64,000 bases of DNA from Candidatus Lightella neohaematopini (GTDB lineage: Bacteria; Pseudomonadota; Gammaproteobacteria; Enterobacterales; Enterobacteriaceae), in NCBI GenBank assembly GCA_025728535.1, contig JAOBJO010000001.1:124001-188000 (forward strand), written 5' to 3'. The notes below the pieces were generated by a model. The model was not told the DNA's origin. It made no database searches and was given only the letters and a program-made list of their open reading frames with translations. Positions 1,934 through 54,212 of this stretch are shown here, piece after piece. Positions within the stretch are counted from its first letter, which is position 1; each line of letters starts with the position of its first letter. Both the position numbers and the translations under genes were made by a program.

Positions 1934-4546
1934 ATGTATAAATCTTCTTTAGAAATTCGACAAATTTTTTTAAATTATTTTACTAGTAGAAATCATCAAT
2001 TAGTTGATAGTAGTTCATTAGTACCAAAAAATGATTCAACATTAATGTTTACTAATGCTGGAATGAATCAATTTAAAAATATTTTTCTCGGTATTGAAAA
2101 GCCAAAGTATATTAATGTTGTTACTGTGCAGAGATGTGTAAGAGTAGGTGGTAAACATAATGATTTAAATAATATTGGTCATACTAAACAACATCATACC
2201 TTTTTTGAAATGTTAGGTAATTTTAGTTTTGGTGGATACTATAAATTAGAAGCTATTCAATTTGCCTGGCAACTATTAACTAATAGTAAATTTTTTGCAA
2301 TACCAAAAAATAAATTATTAATAACAGTAAATGCACATGATACTTCTACAATACGTTATTGGTTAGAATTAGGATTATCTAATAATCAATTAATATTAAT
2401 AGGTAGTAAAGAAAAAAAAATTTATTATTCTAGTAATTTTTGGTATATGGATGAGTTTGGTCCGTGTGGACCATGTACAGAAATTTTTTATTATTTAGGT
2501 AAAGATAGTATTAATAATTGTTTAAAAAAACTTAACTTTGAAGAAAACAATGAAGATTTTTTAGAATTATGGAATTTAGTATTTATACAATTTAATAAAC
2601 AAAATAACAATATCTTTTTGCCATTAAATAATAATTCTGTTGATACAGGTATGAGTTTGGAACGAATAACTTCAGTTTTACAAAATGTTAATTCTTGTTA
2701 CGAAATTGATGTATTTAAATTATTAATCGCAGCTATTACAAAAAAATTAGAGATTAAAAATTTTTGTAATTCTTCACTATATATAATAGCTGATCATATA
2801 CGTACTTGTGTATTTATTATAAGTGACGGTGTTTTTCCTAGTAATAGTGGTAGAGGTTATGTTTTAAGAAAAATTATACGGCGCGCGATAAATTGTGGTA
2901 GAAGATTAGGTATTAGACATTTATTTTTATATAAGTTAGTAATTCCATTAATTAAAATTATGAAAATAAAAACAAATCATTTTATTATTTCAATAAAAAA
3001 TATTATATATATTCTTAAACAAGAAGAAAAACAATATGATAATACTATAGATAAAGGTAAAAAAATAGTAAGTAAAATAATATCTAAATTAAATAATAAT
3101 ATGCTTAATGGTAAAATAGTATATTATTTGTACGATACCCATGGTATTTCTTTAAATATAATTAAAGATATATGTAACAATAATAATATACAAATAAATG
3201 AATCAGAGTTTAAAAAAGAATTAAAGAAAAGACAAAGTCTAATATTAAATAAAAATAAAGTAGGTGTTAATACTTTATTAAATAATTATAAAAAAACTAA
3301 GTTCATTGGCTATAATTATATAGAATCTATCAGTGTTGTACAAGGAATAATATATAATAATAAAAATATTGATAAGTTATATTATAATAGTAGTAGTAAT
3401 AAGATATATATTATTCTTGATCAAACACCATTTTATGGTGAATCTGGTGGTCAAGTTGGTGACCATGGGAAAATATTATCAGATAATGTTATGGTTAATA
3501 TTACTAACACAAAAAAATATGGTGATGTATTTGTGCATGAAGGTATTTTAGAATATGGTGAGTTAAAAGTTGGCATGAAAGTAACTGCGCTAATTAATCA
3601 CGTAAGACGTAATTTAATTAGTATAAATCATACTGCTACTCATATGCTGTATGCTGCTTTAAAAAAAATTATCAGTACCCATATTAAACAATATGGTTCG
3701 TATATTGATGAGTATCATTTACGCTTTGATGTGATTAGTAATATACCATTGAAAAATTACGTATTAGAGATAGAAGATATTATTAATAAACAAATTAAAG
3801 ATAATATTCCTGTTGTAACTTATATTGATAATAATACTAAATATAAAAATATTAATAATTTAAGAAGTGTAAAAATTAGTAATATATCTTATGAAGATTG
3901 TGGTGGTACACACGTTAAATCTACTAAAGATATTAATTTATTTTGTATTGTACAAGAATCAGGAATTGCTAAAGGTATAAGACGTTTAGAAGCAATTACT
4001 AATGAGGTTGCGTTTAATTTTTTAAGAGAACAAAAAAATAGTGTACTAAAAATTTCTAAATTAACTAAATCTAATATACAATCAGTATTTAAACAAGTAT
4101 CAACACTTGTAAATAACTATAAAATTTTAAAGCAAGATATAATAAATCTGGAAAGACAGTATATTAATAGTCAGGTAGAAGTTTTACGTTACAAAGTTAG
4201 ATATTTTTTAAATAAAAATAATCATATTTTAATAGAACAAATTAGTTGCAATAATGTTAGTATATTGGTTAATATTGTTAAATTATTAAAAAAATATTTA
4301 AGTTCATTAATTATTATACTATTTACTAAATTAAATAATATTGTTTATTTAGTAGTTGGTGTAACCAATAATATAATTCAGTATATACAAGCAAATAATA
4401 TTATTAGATATTTAATTGATAATGTTGGTGGTAAAGGTGGTGGCACATCGGATATATCACAAATAGTAATTGATAATATCAATTTGTTACCTAATATTAT
4501 AAATAATATACGTGTATTATTATCTAGTAAAAAAATAATATACTAA
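1934..4546 (+). CDS. alaS: Alanyl-tRNA synthetase
   Basis: AlaRS charges tRNA-Ala and normally hydrolyses Ser- and Gly-tRNA-Ala. The length is 870 aa (E. coli 876). Visible in order: class II aminoacylation domain with RCVRVGGKHNDL and GPCGPCTEIF; tRNA recognition region with GRGYVLRKIIRRA; editing domain with the zinc motif HTATH and the partner motif CGGTH; C-terminal domain with the glycine-rich GGKGGG. Odd: the highly conserved GAMALFGEKY segment between the two halves of the editing site is missing, replaced by a short NINNLRSV stretch. It lies 13 nt downstream of recA, probably co-transcribed, with no strong ribosome-binding site. Confidence 0.97.
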   Translation: MYKSSLEIRQIFLNYFTSRNHQLVDSSSLVPKNDSTLMFTNAGMNQFKNIFLGIEKPKYINVVTVQRCVRVGGKHNDLNNIGHTKQHHTFFEMLGNFSFGGYYKLEAIQFAWQLLTNSKFFAIPKNKLLITVNAHDTSTIRYWLELGLSNNQLILIGSKEKKIYYSSNFWYMDEFGPCGPCTEIFYYLGKDSINNCLKKLNFEENNEDFLELWNLVFIQFNKQNNNIFLPLNNNSVDTGMSLERITSVLQNVNSCYEIDVFKLLIAAITKKLEIKNFCNSSLYIIADHIRTCVFIISDGVFPSNSGRGYVLRKIIRRAINCGRRLGIRHLFLYKLVIPLIKIMKIKTNHFIISIKNIIYILKQEEKQYDNTIDKGKKIVSKIISKLNNNMLNGKIVYYLYDTHGISLNIIKDICNNNNIQINESEFKKELKKRQSLILNKNKVGVNTLLNNYKKTKFIGYNYIESISVVQGIIYNNKNIDKLYYNSSSNKIYIILDQTPFYGESGGQVGDHGKILSDNVMVNITNTKKYGDVFVHEGILEYGELKVGMKVTALINHVRRNLISINHTATHMLYAALKKIISTHIKQYGSYIDEYHLRFDVISNIPLKNYVLEIEDIINKQIKDNIPVVTYIDNNTKYKNINNLRSVKISNISYEDCGGTHVKSTKDINLFCIVQESGIAKGIRRLEAITNEVAFNFLREQKNSVLKISKLTKSNIQSVFKQVSTLVNNYKILKQDIINLERQYINSQVEVLRYKVRYFLNKNNHILIEQISCNNVSILVNIVKLLKKYLSSLIIILFTKLNNIVYLVVGVTNNIIQYIQANNIIRYLIDNVGGKGGGTSDISQIVIDNINLLPNIINNIRVLLSSKKIIY

Positions 4547-22839: not shown

Positions 22840-22926
22840 GCGGAAGTGGCGAAATTGGTAGACGCACCAGATTTAGGTTCTGGTACTATTTTTTTTGGTG
22901 TACGAGTTCAAATCTCGTCTTCCGCA
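22840..22926 (+). tRNA. leuW: tRNA-Leu (UAG)
   Basis: An 87-nt cloverleaf with acceptor arms GCGGAAG / CTTCCGC, discriminator A, anticodon TAG and a long variable arm, matching E. coli leuW. Odd: the variable arm contains eight T in a row (22889-22896), so its stem is weak compared with the GC-rich E. coli one. No 3' CCA is encoded; TAA follows. Confidence 0.97.
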
Positions 22927-24895: not shown

Positions 24896-27379
24896 ATGTT
24901 TAATGAATATAATCATAAAGAAATAGAACATATTGTACAAAAATATTGGCAAATAAATAATATATTTAAAGTTAATGAAGATGTTAATAAAGAAAAATAT
25001 TATTGTTTATCTATGCTACCGTATCCTTCTGGGAATCTACATATAGGTCACATACGTAACTATACAATTGGTGATATTATATCACGTTACCATCGTATGT
25101 TAGGAAAAAATGTCTTATATCCTATAGGTTGGGATTCTTTTGGTTTACCAGCAGAAGAAGCAGCTATAAAAAATAAAGTTAAGCCAGAAGAATGGACATA
25201 TAAAAATATTCTTTACATGAAAAGACAATTAAAAATGTTAGGATTTAGTTATGATTGGAGTAGAGAAATAATTACTTGTAAACCAGAATATTATCGTTGG
25301 GAACAATTATTTTTTTTATATTTATATAATAAAAAGTTAGCATATAAAAAAAAATCAATAGTTAATTGGTGTTCAAATGATAAAACTGTCTTGGCTAATG
25401 AACAAGTTATTGATAATCGTTGTTGGCGTTGTAATACAGTAGTTACTTATAAAAATATATCTCAATGGTTTTTAAAAATTACTAATTATGCAGATGAGTT
25501 ACTTAGTAGTTTAGATACATTACATGATTGGCCAATAGAAGTAAAGAATATGCAACGTAATTGGATAGGAAAAACAAAAGGTTTTGAAATTAAGTTTAAA
25601 ATTCTTAATAGTGAAAATTATATAAAATCTTACACTAATAGTATAGATAATATTATGAAAGTAACTTGTATATTAATTAATATAAAATATTTTCTAGATA
25701 AAAAATTTTTACTATCTCAATCTATTAAAGATTTTATCAATAAACATAAACTATATTCTAATATATCTAATTGTGATCAAGTTGGAATTCCTACCGAAAT
25801 GTATGCTATACATCCAATAAATAAGCAACATATACCTATATGGTTAGTAAATAATATATTAACTAATACTACCAATAGTAGTATGTTAATTCCTAGTAAT
25901 AATGAATATGATTTAATGTTTGCAAATAAGTATAATTTAACAAAAACTATAACTAAGAAAAATAAAGAATTAAATAGTTTAAAATATGGTAAAAGTAAAT
26001 TAAATATTACTAATTTTCTATTAAAACATGGTTATATCAAAAGAAAAATATTATACCGTATACATGATTGGTGTATTTCTAGACAACGTTACTGGGGTGT
26101 ACCAATACCTATGATGACTATAAACAAAAATATTATACCAGTACCATATAGTCAAATACCAGTTATACTACCTAAAAATAATAAATATGATAATCCATTA
26201 CTTAATCCAAAATGGTATAAAATTAGTTACAATAATAAATTAGCTTTAAGAGAAACAGATACATTTGATACATTTATGGAATCATCATGGTACTATATTC
26301 GTTATACTTGTCCAAATTATAATTTAGGTATGGTAGATAGTACAGCTGCTAATTATTGGTTACCAATTGATCAGTATATTGGAGGAATTGAACATGCTAC
26401 TATGCATTTGATATATTTTCGTTTTTATCATAAATTAATGCGTGACGCAAAATTAGTTAATTGTAATGAACCTGTAAAAAAATTATTATGTCAAGGGATG
26501 GTATTATCTAATGCTTTTTACTATATTTCTAGTAAGAATAAAAAAATTTGGGTTTCTCCAGATAAAGTAAAAGTACATTATAATAATGATGGAAATATAA
26601 TATCAGCTAATGACATATATGGTAATAAATTAAAGTATGCTGGTTTAGTTAAGATGTCCAAATCAAAAAATAATGGTATAGATCCAATAAAAATAATTAA
26701 TAAATATGGTGCTGATTCTTTAAGACTGTTTTTAATGTTTGCTGCTCCTGCCACTATGCCTTTAGTTTGGTGTGAATCGGGTATTATAGGAATTAATCGT
26801 TTTTTAAAGAAAGTATGGACTCTAACATATTGTTATATTAAATTAAGAAAATCAAATAGTAATTATTCTAATATTTTAAAAACTAATCATAAATTAATAA
26901 GATACCAAATACATTCCACTATACATAAAGTTACTTATGATATAGAAAAAAAACAGACGTTTAATACCACTATTAGTGAATTAATGAAGTTAACTAATAC
27001 ACTACTAAAGTATAGTAATAATAAAATTATAAATAATATTAATGTTTTAAAAGAAGGACTATACACATTAATAAAATTATTGTATCCGTTTGCTCCACAT
27101 ATTTGTTTTGTACTATGGAAAATTTTAGGTAATAAAAATAATATTGATTATTCTGATTGGCCTTGTATAGACAAAGAAGCGTTAACACTAAATAATATTA
27201 ATATTATTTTCCAGATAAATGGTAAGTTTAAGGGAAAAATTAATGTTCCGGTTAACTCAAGTCAAGAATTAGTTTATAATTTACTGTATAATAAATACTT
27301 ATCTAAAAAAAATATAAATATTTTTAAAATTAAAAATATTATTTTTTTATGTAATAAATTAATAAATATAGTTATTTAA
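24896..27379 (+). CDS. leuS: Leucyl-tRNA synthetase with degenerate editing domain
   Basis: LeuRS charges tRNA-Leu. The 827-aa protein (E. coli 860) has the class I motif HIGHIRNY (49-56), the WDSFGLPAE block, DWCISRQRYWGVPIP and the KMSKS loop VKMSKSKNNG. The CP1 editing domain is present in length but not in its active site. E. coli residues 247-252 (TTRPDT) read Thr-Asn-Ser-Ile-Asp-Asn at the same numbering, so catalytic Thr252 is lost. The GTGAVM and PGHDQRD blocks read TNSSML and PSNNEYD. Synthetic function looks intact while hydrolysis of mischarged tRNA is probably lost. It is followed after 2 nt by lptE, as in E. coli. Confidence 0.97.
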   Translation: MFNEYNHKEIEHIVQKYWQINNIFKVNEDVNKEKYYCLSMLPYPSGNLHIGHIRNYTIGDIISRYHRMLGKNVLYPIGWDSFGLPAEEAAIKNKVKPEEWTYKNILYMKRQLKMLGFSYDWSREIITCKPEYYRWEQLFFLYLYNKKLAYKKKSIVNWCSNDKTVLANEQVIDNRCWRCNTVVTYKNISQWFLKITNYADELLSSLDTLHDWPIEVKNMQRNWIGKTKGFEIKFKILNSENYIKSYTNSIDNIMKVTCILINIKYFLDKKFLLSQSIKDFINKHKLYSNISNCDQVGIPTEMYAIHPINKQHIPIWLVNNILTNTTNSSMLIPSNNEYDLMFANKYNLTKTITKKNKELNSLKYGKSKLNITNFLLKHGYIKRKILYRIHDWCISRQRYWGVPIPMMTINKNIIPVPYSQIPVILPKNNKYDNPLLNPKWYKISYNNKLALRETDTFDTFMESSWYYIRYTCPNYNLGMVDSTAANYWLPIDQYIGGIEHATMHLIYFRFYHKLMRDAKLVNCNEPVKKLLCQGMVLSNAFYYISSKNKKIWVSPDKVKVHYNNDGNIISANDIYGNKLKYAGLVKMSKSKNNGIDPIKIINKYGADSLRLFLMFAAPATMPLVWCESGIIGINRFLKKVWTLTYCYIKLRKSNSNYSNILKTNHKLIRYQIHSTIHKVTYDIEKKQTFNTTISELMKLTNTLLKYSNNKIINNINVLKEGLYTLIKLLYPFAPHICFVLWKILGNKNNIDYSDWPCIDKEALTLNNINIIFQINGKFKGKINVPVNSSQELVYNLLYNKYLSKKNINIFKIKNIIFLCNKLINIVI

Positions 27380-31378: not shown

Positions 31379-33223
31379 TTATGATTTAATTACTTTATAT
31401 TTTTTATATTTACTACAAAAATTATTTTTTTTTCTTAATTTTTTATTTTTATTATAACAAATTAATTTATTTATACGAATAAATACACATTTAATAAAAT
31501 TAAAAAAAAATACCAATAAATTTATTTTTTTACAAAAATATCTTTTTTTCAATAGAGAATTTTTAGTTTTTGAAATATTTGATGTATTATAATTTTTATA
31601 TTTTGATAAGTTATTAATTTTATTATATTTAATATGAGATATTTTACTACTATCTGATTTTAGTATAATCTTATTATCTAAGTAATGAAAATTTTTTATT
31701 GTGTATAATTTAGAAGAAAAATAGTTTACATTCGGTAATTTTTCTCCCTTACGTAATCTTAATACTATAAAATGTGGAGTTTGCATTTTATCATCTGGAA
31801 CTATTATAGTTCGTACTCCTCCTTGTCTTTTTTCAATTGCACTTACTTCTGCCCGTTTTTCATTTAGTAAATAAGAAGCAATTGGTACAGGAGCGATTGC
31901 TCTTACTTCATAAGTATTTTCTTTTAAAGCTTCTTCTTCTATTAATCTTAGTATTGATAAAGATAAAGATTCATTATCTCTAATATGACCTGTACCATTA
32001 CATCTAGGGCAAATATAATGACTTGATTCTCTTAATGATGGGCTAAGACGTTGTCTAGATAATTCTAATAATCCAAATCTAGAAATCCGTCCTATTTGAA
32101 TACGTGCTCGATCAATACGAACAGCTTCTTTTAAAGAATTTTCTACCTCTCTACGATGAGAAAAATTAGACATATCAATAAAATCAATGACAATTAATCC
32201 ACCTAAATCTCGTAATCTTAATTGACGAGCTATTTCAATAGTTGCTTCTATATTAGTATTAAAAGCAGTTTCTTCTATATCTAATCCTTTTGTTGATTTA
32301 GCTGAATTAATATCAACTGCTGTTAGTGCTTCTGCTGTGTCAATTATAATTGATCCTCCAGATGGTAAAAGTACTTTACGTTGAAAAGCTGACTCAATTT
32401 GTGATTCAATATGATAATGACTAAATAATGGAATATCACCATTATATAATTTAATTTTATTGATAAAATCTGGCCTACCTAAAGTATTAATGTGTTCTTT
32501 TGCTATATTTAATGTATCCTTATCATCAATTAATATTTCTCTTATATCAGGTCGTAAATAATCTCTAAAAGCACGTACTATTACATTACTATCTTGATGA
32601 ATTAAAAAAGGTGCTTGTTTTTTACTAGCAATTTTTTTTATCATTTGCCAATGTTTTAATCTTAATGATAAATCCCACTGTAATGCTTCTATTGGTTTAC
32701 CAATACCTGCAGTTCTTATAATAATACTCATACCAATTGGTATTTCTAGTATTGATAATATTTTTTTTAGTGCAACTCTATCATAACCTTCTATTCTTCT
32801 AGAAATACCAATTGGACGAGGATTATTTGGCATTAATACTAAATAGCTACCAGCTAAATTAATAAAAGTAGTTAATACAGCTCCTTTACTACCTCTTTCT
32901 TCTTTATGAATTTGTATAATAATTTCTTGTCCTTCAAATAAAATATCTTTTATATTTTTTTTGTTAAAAAAATGATTTTTATCATTTATAAAGTACTCTT
33001 TAGAAATCTCTTTAAATGGAAGAAATCCATTTTTTTCTGTTCCGTAATCTACAAATACAGCTTCTAAACTAGGTTCTATACGAGATATTTTACCTTTGTA
33101 AATATTAGATTTTTTTTGTTCGTATCCAAAATTTTCAATATTTAAATCATATAATTGTTGCCCATCTACTAATGCTATACGTAATTCTTCCTTTTGTGTT
33201 GCATTAATTAACATTCTTTTCAT
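31379..33223 (-). CDS. rne: Ribonuclease E, catalytic half with short tail
   Basis: RNase E is the main mRNA-decay and RNA-processing endonuclease. The first about 510 residues match the E. coli catalytic half closely: MKRMLINATQKEELR, S1 domain GKISRIEPSLEAVFVDYG, DNase I-like region with GGLIVIDFIDM, and the zinc-link CPRC. The total is 614 aa against 1061, so the degradosome scaffold (RhlB, enolase and PNPase sites) is gone. The remaining tail is Lys-rich with a hydrophobic stretch LLVFFFNFIKCVFI at 569-582. E. coli has its membrane-targeting helix at about 568-582, so this may be the same element. It is divergent from rpmF. Confidence 0.95.
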   Translation of the reverse strand: MKRMLINATQKEELRIALVDGQQLYDLNIENFGYEQKKSNIYKGKISRIEPSLEAVFVDYGTEKNGFLPFKEISKEYFINDKNHFFNKKNIKDILFEGQEIIIQIHKEERGSKGAVLTTFINLAGSYLVLMPNNPRPIGISRRIEGYDRVALKKILSILEIPIGMSIIIRTAGIGKPIEALQWDLSLRLKHWQMIKKIASKKQAPFLIHQDSNVIVRAFRDYLRPDIREILIDDKDTLNIAKEHINTLGRPDFINKIKLYNGDIPLFSHYHIESQIESAFQRKVLLPSGGSIIIDTAEALTAVDINSAKSTKGLDIEETAFNTNIEATIEIARQLRLRDLGGLIVIDFIDMSNFSHRREVENSLKEAVRIDRARIQIGRISRFGLLELSRQRLSPSLRESSHYICPRCNGTGHIRDNESLSLSILRLIEEEALKENTYEVRAIAPVPIASYLLNEKRAEVSAIEKRQGGVRTIIVPDDKMQTPHFIVLRLRKGEKLPNVNYFSSKLYTIKNFHYLDNKIILKSDSSKISHIKYNKINNLSKYKNYNTSNISKTKNSLLKKRYFCKKINLLVFFFNFIKCVFIRINKLICYNKNKKLRKKNNFCSKYKKYKVIKS

Positions 33224-33579
33224 TTAGTATTACTCATATTTAATAATTATATGAATGATATATTAACTATATTAAAAAATAATTAATTGACATATTGTTA
33301 CAATTAAATGTTAAGTTTAGTAACTTTAGAATATTATAATCATCGATATTATTATAGTTAATATTATAAAAATTTTTATATATAATATATTATTATAACA
33401 ACATAAAAATATTAATTTTTATTAAATAAATTTAATTAAAAATAAGATACTAATTTACTAAATTATATTGTACAATAATACTGTGGTTATTTGTTGTAGT
33501 TAATATTTAACTATTCAATGTTAGTAATTATTAATTATCTAATTTTATTAAAGTTTATTTTACAGTGTAGGAATTGTTT
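33224..33579. other. Divergent rne / rpmF spacer
   Basis: These 356 nt hold no gene. In E. coli the rne leader is about as long and carries hairpins for autoregulation; I could not identify an equivalent. A perfect -35 hexamer TTGACA is at 33287-33292 pointing toward rpmF, without a convincing -10 at the right spacing. A 12-bp palindrome TATTGTACAATA occurs near 33470. The E. coli gene before rpmF (yceD) is absent. Confidence 0.35.
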
Positions 33580-33753
33580 ATGGCTGTTCAACAGAGTAGA
33601 TCAACAAGATCAAAAAGAGGTATGAGAAGATCTCATCATGCATTATCTAGTATAAATTTATCATTTAATAAATATTCAAATGAAGTACATTTAAGACATC
33701 ATATTACGCCTAATAAAATTTATAGAAAGTATAAATTATTTACTAGTAAATAA
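33580..33753 (+). CDS. rpmF: 50S ribosomal protein L32
   Basis: L32 is a small basic large-subunit protein. The 57-aa product starts [22 protein letters not shown] and has HLRHHIT, matching E. coli L32 along its whole length (57 aa). The ribosome-binding site is TAGGA, 8-10 nt before the ATG. It heads the fatty acid cluster as in E. coli, but plsX, which should follow, is missing: fabH starts 68 nt later. Confidence 0.96.
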
Positions 33754-33821
33754 ATTAACAAAATAAATATGGTTATTTATTTAATTTTGTTTTATTAATT
33801 AAAATATAAATATTTACATTC

Positions 33822-34772
33822 ATGTTTACTAAGATTATTGGTACTGGTAGTTATTTACCAAAAAATATTAGATCTAATAATGATCTAGAAAAAATAATTA
33901 ATACTTCTGATGAATGGATTATTACTAGAACTGGTATTAAAACAAGACATATAGCAGATGTGAATGATACTGTATCTAGTATGGGTAGTTACGCAGCAAA
34001 AAAAGCATTAACGATGGCTGGTATTAACTTTAATCAGATTGATATGATTATTACAGCTACAACGACATCTAGCCATGCCTTTCCTAGTTCTGCTTGTCAA
34101 ATTCAATTTAATTTAAATATTAATAATAGTATATCTTTTGATATAGCTGCTGCTTGTACTGGATTTATATATGGATTAAGCATTGCTGATAGTTATATTA
34201 GAAATGGGTTAATTAATTATGCATTAGTTGTTGGTTCTGATATCTTAAGTAAGACTATAGATATTAGTGATAGAGAAGCAATAGTATTGTTTGGTGATGG
34301 TGCTGGAGCTGCTGTACTTTGTAAATCTAATACTCCTGGTATTATATCTACTAATTTAAGTGCAAATAGCACATATGGCCATTTATTATCACTACCGTAT
34401 TATAATTACGATTATAAAACAATACCTACTTTAAAAATGTTTGGTAATGAAGTATTTAAAATCGCAATAAATAAAATGGTAGATTTAGTTAATGAAACAC
34501 TATATATAAATAAAATTAATATTAGTAATATTGATTGGTTTATACCACATCAATCTAATTTACGTATGATTACAGCTATTTCTAAAAAATTAAATATAGA
34601 GATGAAAAAAATTATTATTACCATTAATAAACATGGTAATACTTCAGCTGCTTCTATTCCTTTAGCTTTAGATGAAGCTATAAGAGATGGTAGAATAAAA
34701 TTAAATGATCTTATATTGTTAAAAGCGTTTGGTGGTGGATTTACGTGGGGATCAATTTTATTAAGGTTTTAA
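33822..34772 (+). CDS. fabH: 3-oxoacyl-ACP synthase III FabH
   Basis: FabH starts fatty acid synthesis by condensing acetyl-CoA with malonyl-ACP. The 316-aa protein (E. coli 317) has the active-site triad in its contexts: Cys in AAACTGFIYG, His in WFIPHQSNLRM, Asn in HGNTSAASIP. GSDEW-like TSDEWIITRTGI near the N-terminus is the CoA-binding region. It is followed by fabD after 3 nt. Since BioC enters a malonyl methyl ester through this same enzyme, FabH probably also primes biotin's pimeloyl chain. Confidence 0.97.
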   Translation: MFTKIIGTGSYLPKNIRSNNDLEKIINTSDEWIITRTGIKTRHIADVNDTVSSMGSYAAKKALTMAGINFNQIDMIITATTTSSHAFPSSACQIQFNLNINNSISFDIAAACTGFIYGLSIADSYIRNGLINYALVVGSDILSKTIDISDREAIVLFGDGAGAAVLCKSNTPGIISTNLSANSTYGHLLSLPYYNYDYKTIPTLKMFGNEVFKIAINKMVDLVNETLYINKINISNIDWFIPHQSNLRMITAISKKLNIEMKKIIITINKHGNTSAASIPLALDEAIRDGRIKLNDLILLKAFGGGFTWGSILLRF

Positions 34773-34775
34773 TTA

Positions 34776-35714
34776 ATGAACAATATTGCATTAGTTTTTC
34801 CAGGACAAGGAATCCAATCTATTGGAATGTTAAATAAATTTAGTGATTTTTGCCCATTAATAAAAAATACTTTTAATGAAGCATCAACAGTACTAAATTA
34901 TGATCTATGGTACCTGTTAAATTATGGTCCAGTTAAAGAATTAAATAAAACTTATTTAACTCAACCAGTTATATTAACCGCTTGTGTTTCTATATGGCGT
35001 ATATGGAATACTTTTTGTAAAGTAAAACCAATAATAGTTGCAGGTCATAGTTTGGGTGAGTATACAGCTTTAGTGTGTAATGGTTGTTTAGATTTTAATT
35101 TAGCATTAAAAATAGTGTATTTTAGAGGAAAATTAATGCAAAAATTTACATCTAGTGGAATTATGTTAGCTGTTATTGGTTTAGACAAACATAAAATTAG
35201 TTATGCATGTAAACAAGCAGCAAAAAATCAAGTAGTAGTACCATCGAATTATAATTCATATAATCAAATTGTGATTTCCGGACATAAGTCAGCGGTGTTA
35301 CGTGCTGAATTAATATGTAAAAAACTTGGTGCTAAATATACAAAAATATTACCTATTAGTGTTCCATCGCACTGTATTTTAATGAAACCGGTAGCAAAAA
35401 TTTTTAGAAGATATTTAGAGAAAATTCAATTTAATAATTTTACAATACCAATTATTCATAATACTCACAGTAGTATAAATAGTTGTAATAAAAAAATATT
35501 TAAATTATTAGCTAAGCAATTATACTATCCAGTAGATTGGGTTAAAATAATTAATTATATTGTAAAAATAATTAAAGTGAATAAAATAATAGAAATTAGT
35601 CCTATTAATGTACTTACTAAGTTTAATATTAATATAACTTATAATAATGTATTTTGTGTTAGTATAAATAGTACTAAACTACTAATAGATTTAGCAAAAA
35701 AAATTAATACATGA
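34776..35714 (+). CDS. fabD: Malonyl-CoA:ACP transacylase FabD
   Basis: FabD loads malonyl groups onto AcpP. The 312-aa protein (E. coli 309) has FPGQGIQSIGM at the N-terminus, the nucleophile motif GHSLGEY, and the catalytic His in VPSHCILMKP. It ends in TGA, one of only two genes I found here using that stop (the other is tsaB). It lies 3 nt after fabH and 7 nt before fabG, so the three are almost certainly co-transcribed. Confidence 0.97.
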   Translation: MNNIALVFPGQGIQSIGMLNKFSDFCPLIKNTFNEASTVLNYDLWYLLNYGPVKELNKTYLTQPVILTACVSIWRIWNTFCKVKPIIVAGHSLGEYTALVCNGCLDFNLALKIVYFRGKLMQKFTSSGIMLAVIGLDKHKISYACKQAAKNQVVVPSNYNSYNQIVISGHKSAVLRAELICKKLGAKYTKILPISVPSHCILMKPVAKIFRRYLEKIQFNNFTIPIIHNTHSSINSCNKKIFKLLAKQLYYPVDWVKIINYIVKIIKVNKIIEISPINVLTKFNINITYNNVFCVSINSTKLLIDLAKKINT

Positions 35715-35721
35715 GTTAACT

Positions 35722-36453
35722 ATGAATAATAATAAAATAGCATTAGTAACAGGAGCTAGTAGAGGTATCGGTTTTGCTATAGCAAAATTATTAGCATTAA
35801 ATAATTTTACAGTAATTGGTACAGCAACTAATAAAAATGGAGTAAATATTATTAATAATTGTCTAGAATCTAATATAATTGGTAAAATACTAGATTTATC
35901 TAATTTTAACAGTATTAATAATTTTTTAAAAAATTTATTTAATGAATTTAATAATATAGATGTATTAGTAAATAATGCTGGTATTACTAATGATAGTCTA
36001 TTTATACGTATGTCAAATGAATTTTGGCATTCAGTAATTAATATTAACTTAACATCAATGTTTTATATTACTAAAGCTGTAATAAAACGTATGATAATTA
36101 ATAAATTCGGTAGAATAATTAATATAGGTTCAGTTATAAGTAATATTGGTAATATTGGACAAGTAAATTATGCAACTACAAAAGCTGGTATAACTGGATT
36201 TAGTAAGTCTTTAGCTAAAGAAGTATCAAAATATAATATCACAGTTAATGTAGTATCACCAGGATTTATTATTACAGATATGACAAAAAATTTAAACGAT
36301 AAACAAAAAAATAGTATATTATCTAAAATTCCTTTAAATCGTTTTGGTACTCCGGAAGACATTGCGCATGTTGTCTTATTTTTGTCTTCTAATAATGCAT
36401 CCTATATTACTGGAGAAACTATTAATGTAAATGGTGGTATGTATATGGTATAA
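35722..36453 (+). CDS. fabG: 3-oxoacyl-ACP reductase FabG
   Basis: FabG reduces 3-oxoacyl-ACP with NADPH in the elongation cycle. The 243-aa protein (E. coli 244) is a short-chain dehydrogenase with the nucleotide loop TGASRGIGFAI, NNAGITND, catalytic Ser in IGSVISNIGNIGQ, and the Tyr-x3-Lys pair in NYATTKAG. The C-terminal YITGETINVNGGMYM is standard. It sits between fabD and acpP as in E. coli. Confidence 0.97.
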   Translation: MNNNKIALVTGASRGIGFAIAKLLALNNFTVIGTATNKNGVNIINNCLESNIIGKILDLSNFNSINNFLKNLFNEFNNIDVLVNNAGITNDSLFIRMSNEFWHSVININLTSMFYITKAVIKRMIINKFGRIINIGSVISNIGNIGQVNYATTKAGITGFSKSLAKEVSKYNITVNVVSPGFIITDMTKNLNDKQKNSILSKIPLNRFGTPEDIAHVVLFLSSNNASYITGETINVNGGMYMV

Positions 36454-52583: not shown

Positions 52584-54212
52584 ATGAAAAAAAAAATATT
52601 AGTTACATGTGCATTACCTTATGCTAATGGCCCAATCCATTTAGGTCATATATATGAACATATACAAGCTGATATATGGGTACGTTATCAAAAACTAATT
52701 GGTAATACAGTTTATTTTATTTGTGCTGATGATGCACACGGAACACCAATTTTATTACAGTCAAAAAAATTAGGTTTATCTATAGAAAATATGATTAATC
52801 AAATATATTTAGAGCATACTAGTGATTTATCCAGATTTAACATTAGTTATGATAATTATTATTCAACACATAGTATTGAAAATAAAAGATTATTAATTAA
52901 TATTTATATAAAACTAAAACGAAAAAAATTAATATATAGTGATACGATTGCTCAATTATATGATACCAAACATAATTTATTCTTACCAGATCGTTTTATT
53001 ATTGGTACTTGTCCTAAATGTTTTTCCTCTAATCAATACGGAGATTGTTGTGAAGTTTGTAGCACTACATATAATGCATTAGATCTAATAAATCCTAAGT
53101 CTGTATTATCTAGTACAACTCCAGAAATACGTATGTCCAAACATTTATTTTTTAATTTACCAATATTTAATAATATGTTATATCAATGGATTAATTCTGG
53201 TGTATTGGATAATTGTATATTAAATAAAGTAAAAGAATGGTTTAATGTTGGACTAAAACCATGGAATATTTCTAGAGATGCTCCATATTTTGGATTCTTA
53301 ATACCAAAAGAAGTAAATAAGTATTTTTATGTGTGGTTAGATGCTCCTATTGCTTATATAAGTACTTTTAAAAATTTTTGTAAAAAAAATAATAATGTAA
53401 ATTTTTATGAATTTTGGGATGAACATTCCAACACATACTTATACCATTTTATTGGTAAAGATATTATATATTTTCATAGTTTGTTTTGGCCTGCAATTCT
53501 TCATAGTATTAATTTTCGTAAACCTAACAAATTATTTGTTCATGGACATGTTAGTATTAATGGAAAAAAGTTATCTAAGTCTAAGAATAATTTTATTACA
53601 GCTAATTCATATTTATCTGTATTAGAAGCTGATTATTTACGTTATTATTATGCTAGTAAATTAACGTTAGGTATTAATGATATTAATTTTAATCTAGAAG
53701 AATTTGTACAAAAAATTAATCATGATATTATTAATAAAATAATTAATTTAGCAGCAAGAAGTTCTAGATTCATAATAGAAAAATTTAATGGATACTTATC
53801 AAAAAAAATATTTGACCAAACATTAAATAATATTTTCATTAATTCATCTAATGATATTCAAATTGCTTTTGAAAAATTAGACATTAGTTTGGTAATAAAA
53901 AAGATTATATATTTAGCTGATTTGGCTAATATTTTTATTAATAAAAATAAACCATGGTTACTAACAAAAAAAGACAATTATCATGATCTACATAATATTT
54001 GTTCCATGGGTATACATTTGTTTGCTATTATTATGGCTTATCTTAAACCTATCTTACCATCTTTAGTAGAAAAAACAGAATTATTTCTTAATACTAAGTT
54101 AGTATGGGTTAATCATATTACTTACTCTAAATTAATTACCAGTAAAATTAATTCATTTATCCATCTGGCAAAAAGAATAGAATTATCACAAGTAAAATTA
54201 ATTATGATATAA
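52584..54212 (+). CDS. metG: Methionyl-tRNA synthetase without the C-terminal domain
   Basis: MetRS charges initiator and elongator tRNA-Met. The 542-aa protein (E. coli 677) has the class I HLGH motif (PIHLGHIYEH), a zinc knuckle CPKC...CCEVC, the methionine-site stretch FYVWLDAPIAYI, the KMSKS loop as KKLSKSKNN, and the anticodon-binding helices with NKNKPWLL. It ends near E. coli residue 545-550, so the C-terminal tRNA-binding/dimerisation domain is absent. Monomeric truncated MetRS is active in the family, so function is expected. Confidence 0.97.
   Translation: MKKKILVTCALPYANGPIHLGHIYEHIQADIWVRYQKLIGNTVYFICADDAHGTPILLQSKKLGLSIENMINQIYLEHTSDLSRFNISYDNYYSTHSIENKRLLINIYIKLKRKKLIYSDTIAQLYDTKHNLFLPDRFIIGTCPKCFSSNQYGDCCEVCSTTYNALDLINPKSVLSSTTPEIRMSKHLFFNLPIFNNMLYQWINSGVLDNCILNKVKEWFNVGLKPWNISRDAPYFGFLIPKEVNKYFYVWLDAPIAYISTFKNFCKKNNNVNFYEFWDEHSNTYLYHFIGKDIIYFHSLFWPAILHSINFRKPNKLFVHGHVSINGKKLSKSKNNFITANSYLSVLEADYLRYYYASKLTLGINDINFNLEEFVQKINHDIINKIINLAARSSRFIIEKFNGYLSKKIFDQTLNNIFINSSNDIQIAFEKLDISLVIKKIIYLADLANIFINKNKPWLLTKKDNYHDLHNICSMGIHLFAIIMAYLKPILPSLVEKTELFLNTKLVWVNHITYSKLITSKINSFIHLAKRIELSQVKLIMI

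Follow-up and report, generated by a model that had tools for sequence, protein, structure and literature searches.

A degenerate leucyl-tRNA synthetase editing site in Candidatus Lightella neohaematopini, one of several probable proofreading losses in a louse endosymbiont

The leuS gene and its editing domain

The DNA considered here, referred to as the window, is a stretch of 64,000 nucleotides corresponding to bases 124001-188000 of contig C2 in the genome of Candidatus Lightella neohaematopini (G000; 461,635 bases in six contigs). This bacterium, described in 2022, is an endosymbiont of chipmunk lice (PMC9376444) and, as a louse symbiont with a genome of that size, belongs with the host-restricted bacteria of reduced genome. 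The gene of interest, leuS, occupies positions 24896-27379 of the forward strand and encodes a leucyl-tRNA synthetase (LeuRS) of 827 amino acids, recognized by its Pfam domains and by TIGR00396, which matches the open reading frame over residues 5-827 as a full-length bacterial LeuRS (923 bits, the cut-off being 548.4; E 1.6e-277). A second LeuRS is ruled out, as this is the sole leuS in the Lightella genome. Its best relative in the PDB is E. coli LeuRS, the comparison reference is E. coli K-12 leuS from NC_000913, and the protein is 82-85% identical to the LeuRS of six further Lightella genomes. Elsewhere in the window, a tRNA-Leu (anticodon TAG, positions 22840-22926) is located some 2 kb upstream of the leuS gene and adjoins tRNA-Gln and tRNA-Met; an RNase E-like protein of only 614 amino acids (31379-33223, reverse strand) apparently lacks the C-terminal scaffold; and a methionyl-tRNA synthetase of 542 amino acids (52584-54212) apparently lacks the C-terminal domain of its E. 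coli counterpart.

The synthetic part of the enzyme is preserved, in agreement with the initial annotation. The HIGH motif (residues 49-52, positions 25040-25051, forward strand) and the KMSKS motif (residues 586-590, positions 26651-26665, forward strand) are intact, and these motifs together with M40, Y43, D80, F493, S496, Y527, H533 and H537 equal those of E. coli wherever the Lightella gene is complete.

The editing site presents a different picture. At positions 25634-25651 of the forward strand, the codons ACT AAT AGT ATA GAT AAT specify TNSIDN at residues 247-252, where the alignment with E. coli and the six other Lightella sequences places the threonine-rich motif, TTRPDT in E. coli K-12 at identical residue numbers, just as the initial annotation had read it. 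Further along (positions 25868-25912, forward strand, residues 325-339), what was once the GTG loop and the PGHDQRD block reads TTNSSMLIPSNNEYD: GTGAVM has become TTNSSM (window residues 325-330) and PGHDQRD has become PSNNEYD (333-339), the window numbering there being 6 below that of E. coli. The decay of both blocks had been noted before, with PSNNEYD given correctly and the loop given as TNSSML, which is shifted by one, while the aspartate D345 within the second block is retained. In E. coli numbering, the residues gone from the window LeuRS are T248, R249, P250, T252, E292, G331, G333, A334, G340, H341 and D342, with H341 and D342 both replaced by asparagine, and those kept are Y246, T247, D251, T332, D345 (window D339) and R416. 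The reported loss of Thr252, the arginine and the proline is therefore correct, and extends to T248, with T247 and D251 kept; Thr252 is not simply catalytic, as this residue helps to set the size of the editing pocket (PMC7229842) and is better described as a pocket-size residue.

Both the threonine-rich region and the GTG loop have been described as essential for editing (PMC7229842), the salt bridge between E292 and R416 holds the 3' end of the tRNA (PMC9424281), and an E. coli mutant with D345 changed to alanine is unable to clear Nva-tRNA (PMC4932531). Compared with an editing-competent LeuRS, all seven Lightella enzymes lack a threonine-rich motif with T248, R249 and T252; the GTG loop and the H341/D342 pair are also missing, and Asp345 is present in all seven, being invariant across 35 aligned LeuRSs. 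This combination, key editing residues gone and synthetic site intact, is that of an editing-deficient aminoacyl-tRNA synthetase (aaRS), and the Lightella LeuRS editing site is very probably non-functional.

These residues lie in the CP1 editing domain (residues 224-389, positions 25565-26062, forward strand), which is supported by the Pfam family PF13603, per-domain identity and an AlphaFold2 model. The E. coli domain, residues 224-417, is longer by 28 residues. Lightella CP1 is 27-28% identical to it, as compared with about 66-70% for the catalytic core, and the value of 0.27 compares with 0.42-0.73 in reduced genomes with intact sites; between Lightella species, CP1 is about 69-84% identical. 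PF13603 still matches at residues 221-358 with 89.9 bits. The AlphaFold2 model, built on an alignment of 35 sequences (mean pLDDT 85, pTM 0.82), superposes over its full length on E. coli LeuRS (Foldseek TM 0.84-0.89, VIA-align Z 46) and predicts that the CP1 fold persists, with its strands, helices and barrel kept and with low confidence (pLDDT 54-62) in blocks 321-340, which include the GTG loop, and 351-370. The natural reading of the model is that of a preserved scaffold with a degraded pocket, even if the prediction may lean towards an intact fold because the alignment includes intact LeuRSs.

Loss within the genus, within the genome and across the family

The comparison with sister symbionts finds the editing-motif loss in all seven Lightella genomes, so that an assembly error does not account for it. 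Within the genus, residue 248 is N, D or K, residue 249 is S, N or D, residue 341 is N, I, S or D, and residue 342 is N or S; T247 is kept in six genomes and is alanine in one, and S334, S335, S340 and N252 are fixed. As the motif is still changing inside Lightella, drift is indicated instead of a newly fixed site. R249, T252, G333, A334, H341, R416 and D345 show no departure in any of the 12 larger genomes of Enterobacteriaceae that were aligned, E. coli included. When these 12 genomes are used to define invariant columns, Lightella keeps 8/17 of those in the editing motifs versus 255/343 in the core (Fisher p = 0.02), and 7/17 versus 49/343 vary within the genus (p = 0.008).

The dN/dS values for Lightella LeuRS are 0.24-0.54 in CP1 and 0.11-0.22 in the core: constraint on CP1 is relaxed yet present and purifying selection persists, and since these values are well below 1 the domain is still needed for something. 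The rate over the whole of CP1 was rejected as proof of relaxed selection; it is weak by itself because CP1 outpaces the core in intact lineages too, where the CP1/core divergence ratio of 1.2-2.1 overlaps that of Lightella (1.6-2.9), and the motif-column and dN/dS comparisons were used in its place. The C-terminal and LS domains of Lightella LeuRS are likewise strongly diverged.

The initial annotation took the loss of proofreading to be selective for LeuRS, a view contradicted by the other editing synthetases of the same genome. For ThrRS, PheRS, ProRS, AlaRS, ValRS and IleRS, residues are discussed in terms of the roles of their E. coli equivalents. ThrRS (G000:C3:36800-39600, reverse strand, L228) has 413 amino acids where the E. 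coli enzyme has 642. Across the seven Lightella genomes its length is 413-417, its match to the E. coli protein begins no earlier than residue 242, and the whole of the N-terminal editing domain is missing. No remnant of that domain was found nearby (tblastn with the E. coli N-terminal 241 amino acids, best E 0.29), and in Lightella the SAD domain is found only in AlaRS. The pocket of PheRS beta (G000:C3, about 33200-36200, L227/L130) is destroyed in all six Lightella genomes with an identified gene, through H265 to M, E334 to G, N or S (G in the window genome), T354 to N and A356 to F. ProRS (G000:C3:108200-110087, L229) is damaged in its INS domain: K279 and D350 survive there, the GPG loop and H369 do not, and identity to E. 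coli is 24% for this domain as against 51% for the ProRS core; the PF04073 profile gives no match in G003 and G004. As for a possible rescue in trans, a free-standing YbaK/ProXp protein was not seen, the PF04073 matches lying solely inside ProRS frames of 549-556 amino acids.

Three further enzymes retain their editing residues. The window itself carries alaS (positions 1934-4546, forward strand), whose product has the HTATH and CGGTH motifs and conserves E. coli H564, H568, C666 and H670; ValRS keeps TTRPET and GTGCVKITPAHDFNDY; and IleRS (G000:C2:85800-89300, L226) keeps WTT-PWT and GTG-VH-APGH..D, with T243 changed to N in the five Lightella sequences examined. Judged by residues and domains, editing is gone in LeuRS, ThrRS and PheRS, damaged in ProRS, and intact in AlaRS, ValRS and, nearly so, IleRS.

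The survey was widened to the LeuRS of 74 other, mostly reduced, Enterobacteriaceae genomes and a set of large ones, with a key score counted over seven key residues and a pocket score over 17. Among the 66 genomes below 1 Mb, G000 being one of them, 36 have a key score of 3/7 or lower, against none of the nine genomes of 1-3 Mb, and KMSKS is present in every surveyed LeuRS. Smaller genomes have lower pocket scores (rho 0.51), as do those with a lower core identity to E. coli (rho 0.69), the genomes compared being phylogenetically non-independent. On a tree of LeuRS core columns, a quick tree with uneven composition, explaining the decayed state takes about 12 changes, of which well-supported branches force at least 5. 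The ThrRS SAD domain is undetected in 20/36 genomes with decayed LeuRS versus 10/39 others (p = 0.01). From these residue patterns, LeuRS editing appears to have decayed repeatedly across reduced Enterobacteriaceae, and this recurrence makes Lightella one case among many.

Two surveyed genomes of about 300-400 kb without leuA (L144 in G038 and L146 in G176) keep the LeuRS pocket almost whole (15/17 residues), an exception to the size trend. Another genus, of about 260 kb (L214 in G216 and L215 in G107), has a LeuRS whose editing site is decayed throughout and whose frame contains 19 TGA codons, consistent with TGA coding for tryptophan.

Norvaline supply and the competing explanations

Norvaline arises as a side product of the pathway to leucine (PMC3834818), and E. 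coli LeuRS discriminates against it only 1169-fold (PMC4932531). In E. coli carrying the D345A enzyme, norvaline reaches about 10% of the measured leucine residues under microaerobic conditions and isoleucine is not put in at leucine positions; when leuB is also mutated, norvaline cannot be made and valine amounts to 0.0072% (PMC4932531). The published Lightella metabolism retains only the synthesis of lysine, glycine and serine (PMC9376444), and the HMGL/LeuA and IlvD families are absent from all Lightella genomes searched, with 14/14 control genomes positive. Because leuA and ilvD are missing, Lightella has no evident source of norvaline; the hazard against which LeuRS editing guards is probably missing as well, and errors at leucine caused by the editing loss are probably few. 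This suggests that a proteome is not necessarily mistranslated when LeuRS editing is lost, because norvaline, the main hazard, depends on a leucine pathway that is absent here. Norvaline supplied by the host, or a synthetic site of lower selectivity, is possible, and so, by analogy with Mycoplasma and microsporidia, is some misincorporation at leucine codons.

Loss of the norvaline substrate was also considered as a family-wide cause and rejected: among small genomes, the pocket score is 7.9/17 with leuA and 7.5/17 without it (Mann-Whitney p = 0.39). Since leuA fails to predict retention of editing, the norvaline argument concerns the consequence in Lightella and not a general cause, for which general genome erosion is simpler.

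The explanation that we favor, with a probability of about 0.88, is reductive evolution: a class Ia LeuRS of ordinary type in which the post-transfer editing site of CP1 has decayed. Because its synthetic site is unchanged, the enzyme would still charge tRNA-Leu with leucine. The CP1 domain would be a shrunken scaffold, most likely serving folding and placement of the tRNA 3' end, and the pocket that would bind and hydrolyse mischarged Nva-tRNA-Leu appears stripped of T248, R249, T252, the GTG loop and H341/D342. We infer that hydrolytic activity is absent, with the reserve that some residual hydrolysis is conceivable since D345, and T247 in six of seven genomes, are kept. The loss would have arisen before the seven Lightella lineages separated and would be one among several editing losses in this genome, its likely cause being a small population, mutation biased towards AT, and selection that is weak in a leucine auxotroph without evident norvaline source; the actual error rate at leucine codons would be low.

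That residual chemistry is the basis of a very unlikely alternative, in which D345 and T247 are helped by N252 or by the serines at 334, 335 and 340 to restore hydrolysis. The invariance of D345, the presence of T247 in six of seven genomes, the fixation of the three serines and N252 in the genus and the purifying selection on CP1 all speak for it, but with CP1 about 69-84% identical between species, shared residues are expected even without selection. Moreover, the GTG loop, R249, H341 and D342 are gone and drifting in the genus, the threonine-rich region and the GTG loop are both held to be essential (PMC7229842), and without the Thr252 side chain, given its role in pocket size, correct Leu-tRNA would presumably be at risk. 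Sequencing or assembly error, or a pseudogene, would be suggested by the record being a draft metagenome assembly; it is refuted by the six sister genomes, as all seven assemblies, made separately, show the loss, the frame is open from end to end, and core dN/dS is 0.11-0.22.

The remaining alternatives accept that the editing site is lost and differ in what follows from it. According to the initial annotation, the loss points to a proteome tolerant of isoleucine, valine or norvaline at leucine codons, and Mycoplasma and microsporidia with defective LeuRS editing do mistranslate leucine codons measurably (PMC7373986, PMC10057733). For Lightella, such appreciable substitution following a selective LeuRS loss is improbable and the claim is unsupported: ThrRS, PheRS and ProRS editing are also hit, the LeuRS synthetic site is unchanged, the editing-dead E. 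coli enzyme does not incorporate isoleucine and gives the trace of valine cited above in a leuB auxotroph, and norvaline requires a leucine pathway (PMC4932531) of which Lightella lacks leuA and ilvD. Somewhat more plausible, if still doubtful, is that editing is gone and the synthetic site alone maintains fidelity, as in human mitochondrial LeuRS, which has a degenerated CP1 (PMC3834818). Every checked synthetic-site residue is conserved, and editing loss need not mean errors (PMC11415595); yet the checked positions equal those of E. coli and so give no sign of a gain in selectivity, and the norvaline discrimination of the E. coli enzyme is modest, at the 1169-fold already mentioned (PMC4932531).

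Relation to known proofreading losses

The loss of editing in host-restricted bacteria is already published, and Lightella adds another instance. Degenerate or deleted LeuRS, ThrRS and PheRS editing domains have been described in Mycoplasma, microsporidia and host-restricted bacteria (PMC7373986, PMC11415595, PMC10057733), and editing loss in intracellular bacteria is noted in a review on insect endosymbionts from 2024 (PMC11020763); the article describing Lightella (PMC9376444) was found to mention neither tRNA nor fidelity in its main text. As relayed by reviews (PMC7373986, PMC11020763, PMC10057733, PMC11415595), Melnikov et al. (2018, PNAS 115:E11505) reported that host-restricted organisms had lost aaRS editing, with small genomes, missing editing residues or domains and intact synthetic sites in several aaRS. 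Lightella resembles those cases, so far as the reviews convey them, and differs in being an additional lineage; what it brings to the published pattern is a well-sampled genus of seven genomes.

Individual LeuRS precedents can be set beside it. In M. mobile, CP1 is wholly missing (PMC3834818), whereas in Lightella a degenerate CP1 remains, as seen in the PF13603 match and the AlphaFold2 model. Human mitochondrial LeuRS is closer, with CP1 present but degenerate and the synthetic site intact (PMC3834818), and microsporidian LeuRS, according to the review account of Melnikov et al. (PMC7373986), also has a corrupted editing domain in a highly reduced genome. In the mitochondrial enzyme, synthetic-site discrimination is reported to take over (PMC3834818), and the microsporidian case, as reviewed, differs from Lightella in involving a deletion in a eukaryotic LeuRS and leucine-codon errors of up to 5.9% by proteomics (PMC7373986).

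As to the number of enzymes affected, Mycoplasma (Li et al. 2011, as cited in PMC7373986) likewise combines a reduced genome with losses of LeuRS, PheRS and ThrRS editing. That review knows of no Mycoplasma in which three or more enzymes have lost editing (PMC7373986), whereas Lightella apparently has three and a fourth enzyme damaged. It is about as likely as not that three, possibly four, editing functions (LeuRS, ThrRS, PheRS and probably ProRS) were lost at once, with AlaRS, ValRS and IleRS keeping theirs; if true, the losses would go beyond the ceiling of two enzymes given for Mycoplasma and reveal which mischarging errors a bacterium cannot leave uncorrected. The losses in Lightella are graded, with four editing functions lost or damaged and three kept.
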